A stretch of 64,000 bases of DNA, taken from positions 1 through 64,000 of the forward strand of contig JAWXBP010000223.1 in the NCBI GenBank assembly GCA_034440135.1. Direction: 5' to 3'. This stretch comes from Planctomycetia bacterium (lineage in GTDB: Bacteria; Planctomycetota; Planctomycetia; Pirellulales; JALHLM01). Below, piece after piece: positions 3,365 through 17,518 of this stretch (position 1 is the first letter of the stretch; every line of letters begins with the position of its first letter). The position numbers were made by a program, and so were the translations under genes. The notes under the pieces are model-generated. The model did no database searches. It saw nothing but the letters and a program-made list of their open reading frames with translations, and was not told the DNA's origin.

Positions 3365-4546
<1,182 letters not shown>

Positions 4547-8799: not shown

Positions 8800-8901
8800 G
8801 GTCGAGTCGCCTCGCAATGATTCCAGCTCGATTATAGACGATTGAGCTGGCGGAAAGGATTGCTCGGCAAATGGTTTGTCGAATCACGCGCCGTCTCCGA
8901 C

Positions 8902-8966
8902 AAGCCCAGGGAAGGCCACCAAAGTCTTAACCAATGGAGAAGACTCCGAGGGCCTTCCCTGGGCTT
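8902..8966. repeat. R5 palindromic element, copy a (65 bp)
   Basis: Arms AAGCCCAGGGAAGGCC and GGCCTTCCCTGGGCTT enclose about 33 bases. The other copy is at 27859-27922, and the sequence next to the arms (TTAACG..GCTCG) is also shared but in inverted orientation. It lies 44 bases upstream of the putative promoter of the riboswitch transcript, in the 519-base gene-free stretch 8800-9318. Confidence 0.8.
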
Positions 8967-9009
8967 AACGCGCTCGACGCGGTTTAATTCGAACGGAGTT
9001 CCGTTGCGC

Positions 9010-9038
9010 TTGACAAACGGAATTGCCCCAGTTAGCGT
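9010..9038 (+). promoter_or_regulatory. Putative promoter of the riboswitch transcript
   Basis: A consensus TTGACA at 9010-9015 is followed, after 17 bases, by a weak TAGCGT at 9033-9038. A transcript starting about seven bases later would begin just where the riboswitch fold begins. The -10 element is poor, so this is tentative. Confidence 0.35.
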
Positions 9039-9044
9039 GATGGG

Positions 9045-9245
9045 CGATGTGTGCTGGTGGTCGGTCGTGAAATCGCTTTCCGATCGACGAACAGGGAACT
9101 CCGGTGAGATTCCGGGACGGCCCCGCCGCTGTAAGTGAGCACACGGTCGCCACTCTTAGAAACCATTGCCACCTTGATGACTTGGTCGTCGCGGCGGCGA
9201 GAAGGTCTGGCGAACCGGCTCACGAGTCAGAAGACCTACCAGTGC
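9045..9245 (+). promoter_or_regulatory. Cobalamin (B12) riboswitch
   Basis: The conserved boxes of the cobalamin aptamer appear in order. They are AGGGAA at 9092-9097, CCGGTGAGATTCCGGGACGG at 9101-9120 with CCCCGCCGCTGTAAG following, GCCACT at about 9148, the GGCGAGAAGG block near 9195-9204, and the terminal ACGAGTCAGAAGACCTACC near 9222-9240, the B12-box equivalent. Such RNAs bind adenosylcobalamin or related corrinoids and normally lower downstream expression when the ligand is abundant. The first gene downstream is the DUF1559 protein starting at 9319, so the cluster of three exported proteins is the likely target. I could not fold the expression platform reliably. Confidence 0.92.
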
Positions 9246-9318
9246 GTTAACGGCGGATTGTTTCGCGAGGGCGAAACCCGCAACGACCGTTCGCTCTAAC
9301 CCCAGTCGACGGTAGGTC

Positions 9319-10209
9319 ATGCCATTTTCGGATTTGCGCTGCGCGCATCGGCGCGCGCGTGGGATTCGCGCTGCGCGCCGGTCACGGGGCTTCACGCTCG
9401 TGGAGTTGCTCGTCGTCATCGCGATCACGAGCGTGGTTGCAGCGCTCGTGTTGCCGGCGCTGACACAGTCGCGCGAAAGCGCTCGCCGCATTGACTGCCA
9501 AAGTCGCTTACGGCAACTCGGACTGGCGGTGACGACGCACGAACACGCGCGCCGCGCCTATCCCACGGGGTGCGTCGGTTGTCGATTCGGCGGACCGAAC
9601 CAGTTGCGATTTCTTTCTTGGAACGTGCAACTACTGCCCTACCTGGAACAGGACGCGCTCTTCCGGCGCTTTGATCTGGAGACCAAATCGTACTCCAGTC
9701 CCAATCGTGAAGCGGGCGCGATGACGCTGCCCGTCTTTCTCTGTCCGAGCACCGCTGGCGATACGCTGGTGAATCGGATCGGACTGTGGCGCGGCATGGC
9801 GTTCACCGATTTCGCCGGCATCTATGGCGTGGAGGGCGTCGGGCGCACGGATAATCGTGAAAACGCTCCCCACTGGCTCCAGCCGGAGTTCTTGGGCGTG
9901 ATGCTTTACGAGACGCCGGTGCGGATGCGTGAAATCAAGGATGGCGCATCGAACACGGCCTTGATCGGCGAAGCCCGCGATCGCCGCGCTACGGAAATGG
10001 AATGGGCGAACGGTCACAACGTCTTTGCGCAAGAAGGCGCCACGCCGATCAACACCGCATCGGGGCTCGGCAATGAGTTAGGCGGGCCGCACCGCGGCGG
10101 CGCTTCGGTCGTGTTTTGCGACGGCCATGTCGCGTTTCTCTCGGACGCCACGGAGCAGGGCGTGCTGAACTCGCTGCTCACCAAGGCGGGTCAAGAGAAC
10201 GTGCGTTAG
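9319..10209 (+). CDS. DUF1559 / prepilin-type N-terminal methylation protein
   Basis: A 296-residue pseudopilin-like exported protein. After a basic leader it has the prepilin cleavage and methylation signal RGFTLVELLVVIAITSVVAA (about 23-42), then the DUF1559 block ALTQSRESARRIDCQSRLRQ. Near the C-terminus is the family's GGPHRGGASVVFCDGHVAFL (the H-x9-DG motif). Such proteins are numerous in Planctomycetes and are thought to be pseudopilin or envelope structural proteins; their exact role is unknown. It starts about 75 bases after the cobalamin riboswitch and is therefore probably controlled by corrinoid. The next exported-protein gene starts 55 bases later on the same strand. Confidence 0.9.
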   Translation: MPFSDLRCAHRRARGIRAARRSRGFTLVELLVVIAITSVVAALVLPALTQSRESARRIDCQSRLRQLGLAVTTHEHARRAYPTGCVGCRFGGPNQLRFLSWNVQLLPYLEQDALFRRFDLETKSYSSPNREAGAMTLPVFLCPSTAGDTLVNRIGLWRGMAFTDFAGIYGVEGVGRTDNRENAPHWLQPEFLGVMLYETPVRMREIKDGASNTALIGEARDRRATEMEWANGHNVFAQEGATPINTASGLGNELGGPHRGGASVVFCDGHVAFLSDATEQGVLNSLLTKAGQENVR

Positions 10210-10264
10210 CCAAAGTCATACGCGTGGTAACGTTTCGCTGGTTATTTCAACGAGAGTCTGCATC

Positions 10265-11152
10265 GTGCGTTGTTATCTAAGTTTGTTGTTGCTCGCTTTA
10301 ACCTCGACGGCCGTCGGTGGGCCGGTCGATAACTTTGACGACATTCAATTCTGGACAGGCGATGGCGCCCATCGCGCGGCGTTGGTTGTCGACTGGGTTG
10401 AAGGCTCCGCCGAGGACGAAAGTCGTGTCTGGGGTTATCGCTGGGACGGCGAGGCCAAAGGTTCCGACATGTTCCTGGCGATCCTGGAAGCCGATCCTCG
10501 ATTCTTTGCCAAAGTGCCAGGAAACAGCGGTACCATCAGCGTTGTCTTCGGCATCGGTTATGACGACGGCGACCTGGATTTCGCGCTCGACGACGGCACG
10601 GCGTTCGATGACAAGGGCCTCGCCGACGTCTCGGGATCAGCGGACGGCGCTGTTCCTTTGGATCCTGAAGACGTCTATGAGGAAGGTTGGTTCCTCGGCT
10701 TCTGGCATTACGGCGTGGCAGACAGCAGCCCGTTCGGCGGCGGCGCGTGGTCGAGTTCCGGACTTGGCGCATCGAGTCGCGTGCTCACCGACGGCGCCTG
10801 GGACAGTTGGGCCTTCACGCCAACGTTCGATTTCAGCGCGTTTGCGGAGAATCCCCATGCTGCGCTGCGTGCAATTAACGCCGTGCTTGGCGACACGGAC
10901 GGGGACGGCCAGGTGAACGTCGAGGACCTGAACAACGTTCGCAACCATTTCGGCGGCGGCGGATTGGGCGATACGGACGGAGATGGCGCCGTCAACGTGA
11001 GTGATCTGAACAACGTGCGTAACAACTTTGGCGCAGGAGTTCCCACCGCCGTCGTGCCGGAGCCCGCTTCCTGGGCGTTATTGTCGATCGGACTAGCGGC
11101 GATTAGCTCGCGTCTCTTACGTCGAAATCGCTTCGGCCTGGTCCAGCATTGA
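10265..11152 (+). CDS. Secreted PEP-CTERM protein with two dockerin-type repeats
   Basis: A 295-residue exported protein with a short signal peptide ending near TAVGG. The main domain contains WTGDGAHRAALVVDWVEG, VWGYRWDGEAKGSDM and AILEADPRFF. By recollection, similar WGYRWDG domains occur in exported proteins next to corrinoid-regulated genes in other phyla; I could not check this. Two dockerin-like calcium loops follow, DTDGDGQVNVEDLNNVRNHF near 210 and DTDGDGAVNVSDLNNVRNNF near 236. The protein ends with a VPEPASWALLSIGLAAIS sorting signal and an Arg-rich tail. The start is the GTG at 10265. It is probably cotranscribed with its neighbours under the riboswitch. A surface protein able to dock to cohesin-like partners is inference. 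Confidence 0.82.
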   Translation: MRCYLSLLLLALTSTAVGGPVDNFDDIQFWTGDGAHRAALVVDWVEGSAEDESRVWGYRWDGEAKGSDMFLAILEADPRFFAKVPGNSGTISVVFGIGYDDGDLDFALDDGTAFDDKGLADVSGSADGAVPLDPEDVYEEGWFLGFWHYGVADSSPFGGGAWSSSGLGASSRVLTDGAWDSWAFTPTFDFSAFAENPHAALRAINAVLGDTDGDGQVNVEDLNNVRNHFGGGGLGDTDGDGAVNVSDLNNVRNNFGAGVPTAVVPEPASWALLSIGLAAISSRLLRRNRFGLVQH

Positions 11153-11250
11153 CACGCGATTCAGAACGTGAATAGCGCTCGCCAATTCGTTCGCAAGTCC
11201 CGGAACTACTGAATACTGTTTTCCTAAGTTTTTTACTCTGAGGAATCACC

Positions 11251-12117
11251 ATGAACATGCGCAGTTGGATCGTTCTCTTGACCGTCATGTTGGCAACGAG
11301 ATCTGAAGTGCGCGCCGCATCATTCGCCGCGCAAGTAAACGAGTTCGTCGTCGGCCAAGGCGCCGCGGCCGGATTCGATAATCCCGCGACCGCGCTCGGT
11401 TCGCCCGCGCGTTTCACCGGCGTCGGCGTGTTTCCGGGCGTCGTCAGTGCTTTCAATCCGCCCTACCTGGCGAGCGAAGTCGTGTCGATCGGCGAAGGCG
11501 GCGTGCTCGAACTGCAGTTGGCGAACTTCATTCTGCCGTCGGCCCTGGGTCGCGATCTGGGAGTCTTCGTCAACGTCGGGCTGATCGACAACGATTACCC
11601 GAACGGCGTCGCCTCGAACCCACTTAGCGCCACCGCCGGGACGTTCAGCGCGGATGCCGTACTGTTGGAAGTCAGCGCCAACGGCCACGATTGGGTCTCG
11701 CTCGGCAGCCAACTCTTCGACGTACCCACGATTGGTTATAGCGACGTCGTGAGCCCGTTCGCCGACACGCCCGGCAGTGCGCCGAGCGATTTTGGCCTGC
11801 CGTTCGACGGCGCTCTCGCCGATCTCGCCGGACTTACTTACTTCGACGCCGTCGCGCCGGACATCTTGGACCTGTTCGCCGGCTCGGGCGGCGGAACCTG
11901 GCTTGATCTCGAATCGACGGGGCTCGAACGCATCGGCTGGGTGCGATTCAGCGTCCTCGATGACGGCAATCCAAGCACCTCGCCCAAGTTCGATTTGGAC
12001 GCAGTCTCGGTTGCGAACAGCGCCGTCGGGCCCGCGGTGCCCGAGCCGAGTGCGATTGCCTTGGCCCTGATCGGACTGACGGCATTCGCGGCAGCGAATC
12101 GCCGGCGACGCTGCTGA
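11251..12117 (+). CDS. Secreted PEP-CTERM protein of the riboswitch cluster
   Basis: A 288-residue exported protein. The signal peptide ends near VRAAS. The domain starts with a characteristic GQGAAAGFDNPATALGSPAR, followed by VVSIGEGGVLELQL, an Asp-rich middle, LLEVSANGHDWVSLGS, a TIGYSDVVSPFADTPGSAPS block and LFAGSGGGTWLDLESTGLER. The C-terminus is VPEPSAIALALIGLTAFAAA plus an Arg-rich tail. I recognise the domain as one recurring in exported bacterial proteins but know no name for it. The ATG at 11251 has GAGGA eight bases upstream. It follows the dockerin protein after 98 bases and is followed by an R12 hairpin that may end the transcript, making it the last gene of the probable corrinoid-responsive cluster. 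Confidence 0.82.
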   Translation: MNMRSWIVLLTVMLATRSEVRAASFAAQVNEFVVGQGAAAGFDNPATALGSPARFTGVGVFPGVVSAFNPPYLASEVVSIGEGGVLELQLANFILPSALGRDLGVFVNVGLIDNDYPNGVASNPLSATAGTFSADAVLLEVSANGHDWVSLGSQLFDVPTIGYSDVVSPFADTPGSAPSDFGLPFDGALADLAGLTYFDAVAPDILDLFAGSGGGTWLDLESTGLERIGWVRFSVLDDGNPSTSPKFDLDAVSVANSAVGPAVPEPSAIALALIGLTAFAAANRRRRC

Positions 12118-12125
12118 ATCTACGC

Positions 12126-12189
12126 GGTCCCGAAGGGGCGACGCAGACTTTGACGCGCACCATGATTGGCGTGTCGCCCCGACGGGACC
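12126..12189. repeat. R12 palindrome (64 bp), possible transcript end
   Basis: Arms GGTCCCGAAGGGGCGAC and GTCGCCCCGACGGGACC (mismatches in the centre) enclose a 30-base loop. It sits nine bases after the stop codon of the PEP-CTERM gene. No T-tract follows, so terminator function is uncertain. Only this copy was seen in the window. Confidence 0.6.
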
Positions 12190-12322
12190 TGAAAGCAAAA
12201 TCCGGCCGCAATTTCTGGAGGTGCAGCTTTGCGGAGCTCGTTGCGCGAATGCCCTCTGCTGCCGGGTTCACCACTTTGCAATATGATGGAGACCTTTGCC
12301 GATAGCGATTGAGACTTGCCAA

Positions 12323-13144
12323 ATGTCCGACGATCGACCGATTCGCCCCGCCGCCGTCCGGGAACACAATCGCCGGGCCTGGGATGCGCGGGTAGCCGCG
12401 CGCGGGCGATTTACAAAGCCCGCCGGCGACGAGGACTTCTTCGATCCGCTGCGCAACGTCGACGGCGTCGGCTGGCTGGGCGACAGCATCGCTGGCAAGC
12501 GCTTGCTGTGCCTTGGCGCGGGCGGCGGCAAACATAGCGTGATTTATGCCGCGGCCGGCGCCGAAGTGACCGTCGTCGATATCAGCCCCGCAATGTTGGC
12601 GCTCGATCGCGAAGTGGCGACGGAGCGGCGCTTGCAAGTCCGCACCGTCGAAGCCTCGATGGACGACCTCACGTCGTTGGGCGCGGGCGAGTTCGAGATC
12701 GTCGTCCATCCGGTGAGCACTTGTTACTTGCCAGACATTCGCGCGGTGTATCGCGAAGTCGCGCGCGTGACGGCGATCGGCGGTGTCTATGTCAGCCAAC
12801 ACAAGCAACCGGTCAGCTTGCAAGCAGACGTGAAGCCCACGGATCAAGGCTACCTGGTGCGCGAGCCGTACTATCGCGCCGGACCGCTCCCTCCGGTGGC
12901 GCACAGCCTGCATCGTGAGGAAGGCACGCTGGAGTTTCTACACCGCTGGGAAGACTTGCTCGGCGGACTCTGTCGCGCGGGCTTCATGATCGAAGATCTG
13001 CTGGAACCATTCCACGCGAATCCCAAAGCCGAAGCCGGCACGTTCTCACATCGAAGTCAGTTTGTGCCGCCGTATGTGCGGATTAAGGCACGCCGCATGG
13101 GAATCGCGCCGGCGGCCACCGGCCGGGTTTGGACGCCAAGCTAA
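12323..13144 (+). CDS. Class I SAM-dependent methyltransferase
   Basis: A 273-residue soluble protein with the Rossmann methyltransferase signature. Motif I is LLCLGAGGGKHS (glycine-rich SAM loop), followed by VTVVDISPAMLALDRE (ribose-binding Asp) and EIVVHPVSTCYLPDI in the motif IV position. The C-terminal half is an insert with PVAHSLHREEGTLEFLHRWE and a final HRSQFVPPYVRIKARR. The substrate cannot be read from the sequence. The ATG at 12323 is preferred over a TTG nine codons upstream. It converges with the next gene, sharing the CTAA that holds both stop codons. Confidence 0.85.
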   Translation: MSDDRPIRPAAVREHNRRAWDARVAARGRFTKPAGDEDFFDPLRNVDGVGWLGDSIAGKRLLCLGAGGGKHSVIYAAAGAEVTVVDISPAMLALDREVATERRLQVRTVEASMDDLTSLGAGEFEIVVHPVSTCYLPDIRAVYREVARVTAIGGVYVSQHKQPVSLQADVKPTDQGYLVREPYYRAGPLPPVAHSLHREEGTLEFLHRWEDLLGGLCRAGFMIEDLLEPFHANPKAEAGTFSHRSQFVPPYVRIKARRMGIAPAATGRVWTPS

Positions 13145-13938
13145 CTAAGCGCACGACTTGCTTCGCCTTGTCGAACGTTGCGCACCAGCCGAATGCCGCC
13201 GACGCGCATCGATTGCAACGTCAATACGCTCGCGGCGATGTGGGACGTACTGATGAGTATGTTGAGCCCATCGGGCCCGGAAATGGCTGTGCCGCGGACC
13301 ATGACGCTCGCCACGCTCACCACCGCGAGCAACGCGGCGCGCAACCAGGCGTTGGACTTCGGGCGCAGCCAAGTGTAAGTCAACGCCGCGTCGGTCAGCA
13401 CCGCTACGGAGATGTAGACCACGAGCTCATTGGCGTATTGCTTCCAGGTCGCGGTGAAATAGCGAGCCAGCGCGCAGCCGATCGCTGCCAGCGTCGTCAA
13501 GATGATCAGAAAGAGCAGCGAAAACTGCCGCGTCTCCAGCGAGCCGGCGGGCGCACCTGTCACGGCCGTGTTTTGCAGGCGCTCGAAGCGGTAGCCAAAG
13601 AACAACCGCGCGCCGCCCGCGATCAACGCCGTGATCGCGGCCATCGGCGTGCAGAGCGCCAGCCACTGCGTGAGGCCATTCCGCATGTAACCATGAATCC
13701 AGGACCAAGCCAGTACCGGGGGCACAATCCACAGCACGCGCCAAAACCATCGCATCGGGGCCAGTACCGGCCAGGCCGCGGCGGAGTTAATCTGGCAGCA
13801 CGCCACGCCGAACGTGAAGGCGATCAGTCCCTCCATGCCGGTCGCATCAAGGGGCACTGCAAAGCAGGCGACCGCGACGCAAACATGCGCCAATACGAGC
13901 AGCCGCAGGATTTTGGATTGCCATTCCATTCGTGCCAT
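13141..13938 (-). CDS. Polytopic membrane protein of unknown function
   Basis: A 265-residue protein with about seven hydrophobic segments (near 10-30, 35-55, 65-85, 90-110, 140-160, 170-190 and 200-240), very few charged residues and short basic loops. No recognised transporter or enzyme motif was seen. It overlaps the convergent methyltransferase by four bases, with the stop codons interlocked as CTAA. A very long plus-strand open frame over this region is antisense to it and does not look protein-like, whereas this frame gives a coherent membrane topology. The ATG at 13938 has no strong Shine-Dalgarno. Confidence 0.7.
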   Translation of the reverse strand: MARMEWQSKILRLLVLAHVCVAVACFAVPLDATGMEGLIAFTFGVACCQINSAAAWPVLAPMRWFWRVLWIVPPVLAWSWIHGYMRNGLTQWLALCTPMAAITALIAGGARLFFGYRFERLQNTAVTGAPAGSLETRQFSLLFLIILTTLAAIGCALARYFTATWKQYANELVVYISVAVLTDAALTYTWLRPKSNAWLRAALLAVVSVASVMVRGTAISGPDGLNILISTSHIAASVLTLQSMRVGGIRLVRNVRQGEASRALS

Positions 13939-14083
13939 TCTGCCTCAGCCCTGCGCGGAGTGCCACGTCAATTGCGTCGTTCGGCGCGCGACCTCGTTGA
14001 AGTTCCGCTCCGCAATCGCGAGAATGCCGGTGGCACACTCCTCCTATCGCCACGATCGCAGCGCAAGGGCAGGCGCGCTCGTT

Positions 14084-14926
14084 ATGCAGGATTCATCCCA
14101 GGGCGTGATCGCCCTTTTGACGCAACCGGTCGCCGGGAACCCAGCGCAATTCGTCATCGAGCGCGCGCTCGCGGCGTGGGGTTGGGACACGCGTTTCTTG
14201 TCGCTGGAAGTCAGCCCGGACAGCCTGGCAGCCGCAATCGCCGGCGCTTGGGCGATGGGCTTCCGCGGCTTGCACCTCGACGACCCACATCGCGAGTCCG
14301 TCGTTTCACTGGCCACGACGACGTCAGACTCTGCCGCACGTACGCAAGTCGCCAATTGCCTGGTGCGCGACACCGATGGATGGCGCGCGACAAATACGCT
14401 TGGCGCCGGAGTCGTGGCGGCACTGACCAACCTCGGGCCGCTCACCGGCAAGCGTGTCGTACTACTCGGCGCCGGCAAGTTGGCACGGAGCGTCGCCGCC
14501 GAACTTGCCACAACGGGCATCGCTCGATTACTGGTCGTCAATCGCACGCAAGAGCGCGGCGAAGCCCTCTCCGCGCTGATGCGGGACGCCTACCACCTCG
14601 ACTGTACCTATGATCGCTGGGAACAACCGCTCGCCATTCCGGATGATTGCGACGTCTTGGTGAACGCCACTTCGATTGCATCGAATGATCCGCACGCTCG
14701 TGTTCCGTTGCGCGTGGAAACTTTGCGACGGGAAACGATTGTCGCCGACGCGACGATGCATCCCACGACGCAACTCTTACGCGACGCCCGCGCCCAAGGT
14801 TGCCCGACGGTAGATGGGCTGGCGATCTACGTGCGGCACGTGGCGGCCTCGCTCGCCCTCTGGACCGGCCGAAAACCGGATCTGGCAATCATGCGCGAGG
14901 CACTGGAAGAGTTCCTGGAACTCTAA
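14084..14926 (+). CDS. Shikimate dehydrogenase-like protein lacking catalytic residues
   Basis: A 280-residue protein with the two-domain shikimate dehydrogenase fold: an N-terminal substrate domain, then the NADP Rossmann domain LTGKRVVLLGAGKLARSVAA with VVNRTQERG as the cofactor-specificity loop. Known AroE enzymes use a Lys-Asp dyad. Here the Lys-bearing block reads GLHLDDPHRE (Lys replaced by Arg), and the Asp of the GxNTDxxG block is Leu in ATNTLGAG. It is therefore probably an AroE paralogue with another or no dehydrogenase activity. The ATG at 14084 gives the usual family length; a longer frame upstream is unrelated. Its stop codon overlaps that of the convergent PEP-CTERM gene. True AroE activity may be encoded elsewhere. 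Confidence 0.82.
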   Translation: MQDSSQGVIALLTQPVAGNPAQFVIERALAAWGWDTRFLSLEVSPDSLAAAIAGAWAMGFRGLHLDDPHRESVVSLATTTSDSAARTQVANCLVRDTDGWRATNTLGAGVVAALTNLGPLTGKRVVLLGAGKLARSVAAELATTGIARLLVVNRTQERGEALSALMRDAYHLDCTYDRWEQPLAIPDDCDVLVNATSIASNDPHARVPLRVETLRRETIVADATMHPTTQLLRDARAQGCPTVDGLAIYVRHVAASLALWTGRKPDLAIMREALEEFLEL

Positions 14927-16814: not shown

Positions 16815-16916
16815 GTGAAGTAGTTAGTAGGTGCAGTAGGCGGAGTAGACGATTGCCCGAAACTCCTGCTACTGCACCTACTCCTCCTACTGCACCTACG
16901 ACCTACTTCACCTACT
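16810..16916. repeat. R10 palindrome (107 bp) supplying two stop codons
   Basis: Arms AGTAGGTGAAGTAG and complement. Inner arms AGTAGGTGCAGTAGGCGGAG and its near-complement make almost the whole element double-stranded. The TAG of the left arm ends the thermonuclease and, read on the other strand, the TGA of the right arm ends the adenosyltransferase. A lone arm of the same type lies at 41484-41540. Confidence 0.85.
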
Positions 16917-17465
16917 TTTTCTCGCTTCCCACGGAACGTCTGCCACGCCCGTCGCTTGATTGACGGCTCGCGCGAGCACGAACAGCCAGTCGCTGAGGCG
17001 GTTCACGTAGGTCACCGCCAAAGGTTCGATGTGTTCGCTTTGCTCAGCGGCCAGTGTGACCAGCCGCCGTTCAGCGCGCCGGCAGACCGTGCGAGCTATA
17101 TGCACGTGAGCTCCGGCCAGCGAGCCGCCGGGCAGAATGAATTGCCGGAGCGGCGGCAGCGTGGCTTCCCAGGCGTCGATCTCTTGTTCCAGCGCGACGA
17201 TCTCCTGCTCGCCGATGCCTGACACGCGCAGTTTTTCCGGATCGGGCGAAGCCAACTCCGCGCCGAGATCGAAAAGTTGGTGTTGCACGCGCGCCACAGA
17301 GGCGTCGAACGCCGCCGGCAACTCGCTCGCGCGGACTACGCCCAACACGGCGTTCAACTCGTCGAGCGTCCCGTAGGCCTCGATCCGCGGCGCATCCTTC
17401 GACACCCGCGGGCCGCCGAACAACCCCGTCTCGCCAGCGTCGCCGGTCTTGGTGTAGATCTTCAT
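16908..17465 (-). CDS. pduO: PduO-type cob(I)alamin adenosyltransferase
   Basis: Transfers the adenosyl group of ATP to cob(I)alamin, giving adenosylcobalamin in the cytosol. The 185-residue helical protein begins MKIYTKTGDAGETGLFGG and continues VSKDAPRIEAYGTLDELNA, the PduO/MMAB ATP-binding region. It also has RRAERR and YVNRLSDWLFVLAR, which is the cobalamin-contacting helix. The ATG at 17465 fits the family; the longer frame upstream does not. The gene gives the organism a use for corrinoid and complements the riboswitch 7 kb away. Its TGA is supplied by palindrome R10, so the last residues (WEARKSR) may have changed when the repeat arrived. Confidence 0.93.
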   Translation of the reverse strand: MKIYTKTGDAGETGLFGGPRVSKDAPRIEAYGTLDELNAVLGVVRASELPAAFDASVARVQHQLFDLGAELASPDPEKLRVSGIGEQEIVALEQEIDAWEATLPPLRQFILPGGSLAGAHVHIARTVCRRAERRLVTLAAEQSEHIEPLAVTYVNRLSDWLFVLARAVNQATGVADVPWEARKSR

Positions 17466-17518
17466 CGTAGATTCGCCATGAGAATGCCGAGTTGTGGAGC
17501 GCAGCGTCACAATGCATC

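Follow-up and report, generated by a model that had tools for sequence, protein, structure and literature searches.

Why should a cobalamin riboswitch stand in front of genes for a pilin-like protein and two exported PEP-CTERM proteins in a planctomycete? This question is raised by the 64,000-nucleotide stretch of DNA analysed here (hereafter, the window), in which a first-pass annotation had proposed a corrinoid-responsive surface module. We consider it probable that the locus is an operon for riboswitch-controlled capture of corrinoids at the cell surface, in which a DUF1559 protein works together with two PEP-CTERM proteins.

Cobalamin riboswitch and the genes behind it

An Rfam scan of the whole window detected one structured RNA, a full-length cobalamin aptamer whose score lies well above the RF00174 gathering score of 31.5 bits (Table 1). 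The match encloses the riboswitch that had been annotated by eye at 9045–9245 and is the only RF00174 match in the genome (7.29 Mb, 96% complete). The first three genes downstream encode, as annotated, a DUF1559 protein with a prepilin N-methylation motif and an H-X9-DG C-terminus (ORF1) and two PEP-CTERM proteins (ORF2 and ORF3), whose signal peptides were judged by eye. The dockerin repeats ascribed to ORF2 did not hold at the PF00404 cut-off. ORF2 has 128 other matches in the genome, essentially all of them to its dockerin and PEP-CTERM tail; because this tail is so common, it is uninformative on corrinoids. A cellulosome-like scaffold built on the repeats was rejected for the same reason and because of the score below the Pfam cut-off. 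The PduO-type adenosyltransferase noted in the neighborhood was recovered by two profiles as a separate gene on the opposite strand.

Table 1. Positions of the features in the window
Feature	Position	Strand	Evidence or remark
Cobalamin riboswitch aptamer (RF00174)	9038–9257	+	81.2 bits, E 1.9e-18, full length 1–189
GACCTACC, aptamer 3′ strand	9233–9240	+	Perfect complement of 9311–9318; predicted 8-bp helix
GGTAGGTC, candidate switch element over the ribosome-binding region	9311–9318	+	Abuts 5′ side of ORF1 ATG; sequence and computed folds
ORF1, DUF1559 pilin-like protein, 296 aa	9319–10209	+	PF07596 E 2.8e-40, N_methyl E 5e-9, HX9DG domain
ORF2, exported PEP-CTERM protein, 295 aa, GTG start	10265–11152	+	PEP-CTERM motif
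ORF2 domain (WGYRWDG-type), candidate corrinoid-binding	10325–10870	+	Recurs beside cobalamin riboswitches in about six phyla
Two dockerin-like/EF-hand repeats of ORF2	10886–11026	+	PF00404 18.3 bits, below cut-off of 22.9
PEP-CTERM sorting signal of ORF2	11054–11125	+	PF07589 22.5 bits, TIGR02595 17.9 bits, both above cut-off
ORF3, exported PEP-CTERM protein, 288 aa, BtuH-like	11251–12117	+	Profile, Foldseek, hhalign
PEP-CTERM sorting signal of ORF3	12034–12108	+	PF07589 26.9 bits, TIGR02595 20.8 bits, both above cut-off
Long GC-rich inverted repeat after ORF3	12126–12189	.	Fold −37.8 kcal/mol, z −2.9
SAM-dependent methyltransferase gene	12296–13144	+	PF08241 E 1e-14
PduO-type cob(I)alamin adenosyltransferase, separate gene	16908–17510	−	PF01923 E 4.4e-63; TIGR00636 199.8 bits, cut-off 108

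The 8-bp helix between GACCTACC and GGTAGGTC is present in the MFE fold. When the aptamer is formed in the computed folds, a different hairpin overlaps part of the bases of the candidate switch element, and the competing folds of the expression platform are compatible with both an ON and an OFF switch. In the window and in its closest relative, the aptamer 3′ strand and the start region pair strikingly well. Among 50 loci of relatives, six reached a pairing score of at least 18, compared with a mean of 1.0 and a maximum of 5 in shuffles; this enrichment is too weak for the pairing to be claimed as a general switch mechanism. No terminator-like site was found between the aptamer and ORF1, and over 8800–12400 such sites were no more numerous than in shuffles; no promoter was recognised in the same scan. 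Because no terminator was seen, the switch likely acts on the translation start of ORF1. We assume that it is OFF with ligand, as in Bacteroides, where the ligand turns the B12 operon OFF (PMC12751083). Just 5′ of the riboswitch, at 8901–8968, lies a near-perfect inverted repeat, AAGCCCAGGGAAGGCC ... GGCCTTCCCTGGGCTT, with a fold z-score of −5.6.

Conservation of the arrangement within the order

To see how often this gene order recurs in other Planctomycetota, as had been suggested with the first-pass annotation, 98 genomes of the same order were searched, and RF00174 was found in 92 of them. ORFs were called mechanically and then clustered at 121 riboswitch loci, namely 120 with downstream DNA and the window. 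A DUF1559 gene was located behind 73 of the 121 riboswitches, and in 56 of these 73 loci a PEP-CTERM-type surface family also followed the DUF1559 gene. Among cultured relatives, Lacipirellula limnantheis I41, Botrimarina colliarenosi Pla108, and Adhaeretor mobilis HG15A2 have the operon. Targets of the usual kinds, namely MetE, class I NrdA, a TonB receptor or a family judged TonB-like by eye, stood behind 31 riboswitches, and six riboswitches were followed by no DUF1559 gene, no surface family and no usual target. In no locus (0/121) was a DUF1559 gene found together with one of these usual targets. The TonB-like family (cluster 26, e.g., in G013, G029, and G077), which lies directly behind cobalamin riboswitches, consists of proteins that have a single membrane segment at the N-terminus and an extended Pro-rich region.

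In a tree of DUF1559 proteins, the riboswitch-linked members required 6 label changes, versus 23.4 in shuffles, and almost none of them mixed with the other DUF1559 proteins of the window genome. This separation speaks for a dedicated component of the operon and not for a chance insertion of an abundant family. Another PEP-CTERM family (cluster 35) follows the DUF1559 gene in six riboswitch loci (L141, L068, L082, L088, L095, and L101). It is possibly a beta-propeller, as judged by eye, and possibly a counterpart of BtuG; in the one member examined, no Pfam domain beyond PEP-CTERM was found.

The conserved order also bears on how far the control by the riboswitch extends. The intergenic gaps of 55 and 98 nt would fit a riboswitch that controls ORF1 alone or is a relic, with ORF2 and ORF3 under their own promoters. 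This arrangement is extremely improbable in our judgment, since the gene order is kept across many genera while the proteins behind the pilin gene change, the aptamers score well throughout, and the intergenic regions showed neither promoter-like sites nor an excess of terminator-like ones. The three genes are probably co-transcribed. The inverted repeat behind ORF3 has no U-run and is therefore not a standard terminator; it is a possible end of the operon transcript. The methyltransferase family is found downstream in 39 of the 121 loci, and the membership of its gene in the operon transcript is doubtful; we left it out because the repeat may end the transcript. A shikimate-dehydrogenase-like gene follows the module at 13814–14926, and a gene of the same kind is found in 26 of the 121 loci.

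Proteins encoded in the slot behind the pilin gene

The slot behind the pilin gene is most often occupied by a DUF4465 gene (36 riboswitches). All of the aligned slot proteins (30/30) match PF14717, and the best PDB matches of the DUF4465 slot proteins are the B12-bound structures 9HMU and 9FCT. B12 binding by DUF4465 proteins has been reported across phyla, for eight of eight reported members (PMC13398666; PMC12751083). One of the eight, the DUF4465 protein of the planctomycete Mucisphaera calidilacus, binds B12 in vitro (PMC13398666), which makes the earlier statement that a corrinoid-capturing surface module would be new for this phylum too strong. Among the 98 genomes, 38 DUF4465 genes were found, and 37 of them follow a same-strand riboswitch at a distance of at most 2.1 kb; the remaining one lies on another contig than the riboswitch of the same genome, which sits at a contig end.

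In nine genomes, including that of the window, the slot is occupied by the ORF2 family, and all nine ORF2-type genes found in the 98 genomes are located 1.0–1.3 kb behind a same-strand riboswitch. DUF4465 was present in none of the nine ORF2 genomes and in 35 of the 89 others (Fisher p = 0.024). Both kinds occur within the genus g45, with ORF2 in three genomes and DUF4465 in one. In five further loci, the slot is filled by a remote ORF2 relative (alignment A5, hhalign 97%). Since the pilins of these five loci are sister to the ORF2 pilins in the tree, the association of ORF2 with the riboswitch within the order is read as one inherited lineage, and for this reason the nine of nine do not represent nine independent events.

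DUF4465 proteins (BtuJ, PF14717), present in 35 of the 98 relatives, thus share the slot and the riboswitch with the window and mostly the preceding DUF1559 gene, whereas ORF2 and ORF3 themselves lack the NTPAY loop and gave no match to PF14717 at E values up to 1; no match was found elsewhere in the genome either. A relationship of ORF2 with DUF4465 or with ORF3, and one of ORF3 with DUF4465, were rejected, as the similarity found by hhalign was confined to the PEP-CTERM tails in each case.

Similarity of ORF3 to BtuH

The ORF3 family (clusters 6 and 13) follows about 37 riboswitches. Its profile, built from 20 members, matched one PDB chain, 8blw_B, at residues 387–517 with an E value of 2.1e-8; with a narrower alignment of the nine closest ORF3 relatives, the match dropped to E 0.016. 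The same chain was the top Foldseek match of the AlphaFold model of ORF3 (pLDDT 72), with an E value of 6.6e-5, and the sole match below 0.001; BtuH2 (7biz) appeared lower in the list with an E value of 0.069. Chain 8blw_B is BtuG1 of B. thetaiotaomicron, and residues 387–517 are its H-domain, which is homologous to BtuH2 (PMC10404256, PMC8941943). BtuH2 is a B12-binding surface protein (PMC8941943), and the H-domain of BtuG1 binds B12 on its own (PMC12751083). A comparison of the ORF3 family with the btuG-adjacent BtuH proteins of Bacteroidota by hhalign gave 94.5% over 71 columns. The Bacteroidota BtuH alignment itself matched BtuG1 (8blw_B) and BtuH2 (7biz) with E values of 3e-104 and 1e-70, respectively.

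The similarity spans about 70–130 residues and includes a core, VSLG-GG...F..xI.N..G.D...N, common to the ORF3 family and to BtuH and the BtuG1 H-domain (7BIZ, 8BLW), whereas ORF3 is much shorter and has no PKD domains. We compared the residues of BtuH2 that contact B12, namely Gln333, Asn399, His476, Tyr510, Trp511, and Trp577. Asn399, the Asn of the GNAF motif, aligns with the nearly invariant N108 of ORF3, and Gln333 is not kept. The other four residues fall outside the alignable part, as the C-terminal half of BtuH, which holds most of the B12 contacts, cannot be aligned with ORF3. The profile and model comparisons suggest that ORF3 is BtuH-like and a candidate corrinoid binder, not a proven BtuH.

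Occurrence of the ORF2 domain across phyla

The N-terminal domain of ORF2 (residues 21–202) gave no PDB match, and 26 diverse members gave no credible Pfam match. Foldseek with the ORF2 model (pLDDT 63) likewise gave no significant match. A divergent DUF4430/transcobalamin beta domain was considered and not adopted: on visual inspection its register seemed to fit, but hhalign gave 1.7%, and none of the 26 members had a DUF4430 match in Pfam, so this kinship is unproven. For the remote relatives (alignment A5), hhalign with DUF4430 gave 26.5%, and a merged profile was no better.

The search of GTDB genomes yielded 183 relatives of the ORF2 domain, 80 of which were kept; they are labelled as Planctomycetota, Armatimonadota, Verrucomicrobiota/Kiritimatiellia, Bacteroidota, Desulfosarcina, and Fibrimonadaceae. 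Among 24 loci chosen for diversity, 22 had a same-strand riboswitch of the cobalamin class (21 RF00174 and one AdoCbl-II). It lies upstream of the ORF2-type gene in 21 loci and between two such genes in Desulfosarcina; in the two loci without a riboswitch (L198 and L203), the operon start lies beyond the DNA examined. At L172 and L177, two loci of Phycisphaerales, the riboswitch adjoins an ORF2-type gene and no gene of the other families considered here. Within Bacteroides, the genus of L183, the domain was found in 3 of 60 sampled genomes.

Several of these loci have features of their own. The Fibrimonadaceae MAG locus L235 contains AdoCbl-II riboswitches (RF01689) at 702–783 and 3965–4044, one of which overlaps the start of the frame encoding the ORF2 domain. 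In Desulfosarcina cetonica (L190, 7401–7817), two ORF2-domain genes flank a tandem of a c-di-GMP-I and a cobalamin riboswitch, which are separated by 90 bases. Locus L203 is labelled Ruminococcus flavefaciens, but it encodes a TonB receptor and a type IX secretion tail, which makes mislabelling or mis-binning of a Bacteroidota contig probable.

The gene order of Flavobacterium and Chryseobacterium is btuB, btuG, btuH, and the ORF2-type gene. The product of the last gene combines the ORF2 domain with a type IX secretion tail and a BtuG-type DUF5074 propeller (E values down to 1.8e-120). Fusions of the domain with this propeller were found in proteins of Flavobacterium, Chryseobacterium, and Muribaculaceae. 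The window ORF2 differs from them in having no BtuG-type propeller (DUF5074, PF16819); a dockerin-like tail follows the domain instead. Nothing hints more strongly at corrinoid handling by the ORF2 domain than its propeller fusion, which parallels the natural fusion of BtuG and BtuH.

This evidence also weighs on a different division of labor, in which one surface protein alone (ORF3, or DUF4465 in the relatives) binds corrinoid and the ORF2 domain is an accessory, for example for docking to or assembly with the pilin or a receptor. ORF2 does not match any known binder, and B. thetaiotaomicron has two proteins, BtuL and BtuK2, that are encoded in B12 operons without being B12 binders (PMC12751083). 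We nevertheless consider an accessory role unlikely, since a binder, DUF4465, replaces ORF2 in the same slot of relatives, the riboswitches of L172 and L177 adjoin the ORF2-type gene alone of these families, and the domain occurs in fusions with BtuG-type propellers, like the binding H-domain of BtuG1. The broader proposal that the ORF2 domain is a new corrinoid-binding family of about six phyla, and that in planctomycetes it replaces, together with a dedicated pilin, the lipoprotein BtuG/BtuH/BtuJ set of Bacteroidota, is one that may equally well hold or fail.

A surface change regulated by corrinoids, not capture, would be another use of these proteins: an adhesive or pilus-like structure made when B12 is short, for instance for attaching to B12 producers. 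It would be in keeping with the pilin-like first gene, the dockerin-like repeats, and the PEP-CTERM anchoring. We regard it as very unlikely, because the slot proteins of the relatives are known B12 binders, ORF3 is BtuH-like, and the ORF2 domain of Bacteroidota belongs to uptake operons. Capture of corrinoids therefore remains our preferred reading. The surface module proposed in the first-pass annotation is well supported by comparison, namely by the conserved gene order, DUF4465 in the slot of ORF2, the BtuH-like character of ORF3, and the presence of the ORF2 domain in btuB-btuG-btuH operons of other phyla; its corrinoid-binding part, as far as ORF2 and ORF3 are concerned, is one that we infer.

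Proposed model of corrinoid capture and comparison with known systems

According to the capture model, the operon would be expressed when corrinoid is scarce and repressed when B12 is plentiful. ORF2, with its new domain, and ORF3, with its BtuH-like domain, would bind corrinoid outside the cell, and the bound corrinoid would be handed to an outer-membrane receptor encoded elsewhere. The pilin-like ORF1 would probably help assemble or display the module. There is no receptor gene in the operon. The genome contains five TonB plug matches, none of them near the operon, and three of these five proteins weakly resemble the riboswitch-linked receptors of relatives. Precorrin-8X methylmutase (CbiC) was not found in the 96% complete genome, and proteins with a B12-binding domain are present, one of which is MetH-like by reading of its sequence. 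On these grounds the cell probably depends on corrinoid salvage, with the reservation that one gene absent from a 96% complete genome is not proof.

The B12 uptake operons of B. thetaiotaomicron (btuB, btuG, btuH, btuJ, btuK, and btuL) likewise have a cobalamin riboswitch before several genes for surface-exposed B12-binding proteins, a function that in the window is putative. The BtuH-like domain is common to both systems, and DUF4465 (BtuJ) occurs in the sister loci. In contrast, the window operon has no BtuB receptor, ABC transporter, or BtuG; it has PEP-CTERM signals instead of a lipoprotein anchor, a DUF1559 pilin-like first gene, and the ORF2 domain. A surface-capture operon under a B12 riboswitch (in Bacteroides) and a planctomycete DUF4465 binder were thus already known, whereas the ORF2 domain and the riboswitch-DUF1559-PEP-CTERM architecture do not seem to have been described before. 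In the portions of the literature available to our search, nothing joined planctomycetes, PEP-CTERM, or DUF1559 with cobalamin riboswitches; one article contains both of the terms PEP-CTERM and cobalamin riboswitch (PMC12530212).

Gut Bacteroides are, to our knowledge, the only bacteria in which the capture of B12 at the surface has been well studied. The locus described here would extend it to a differently built, riboswitch-controlled surface operon that occurs across a whole planctomycete order. It would also suggest what one lineage of the DUF1559 family, which is abundant and unexplained, is likely to do, and, through the unannotated ORF2 domain, it may tie about six phyla to B12 acquisition.
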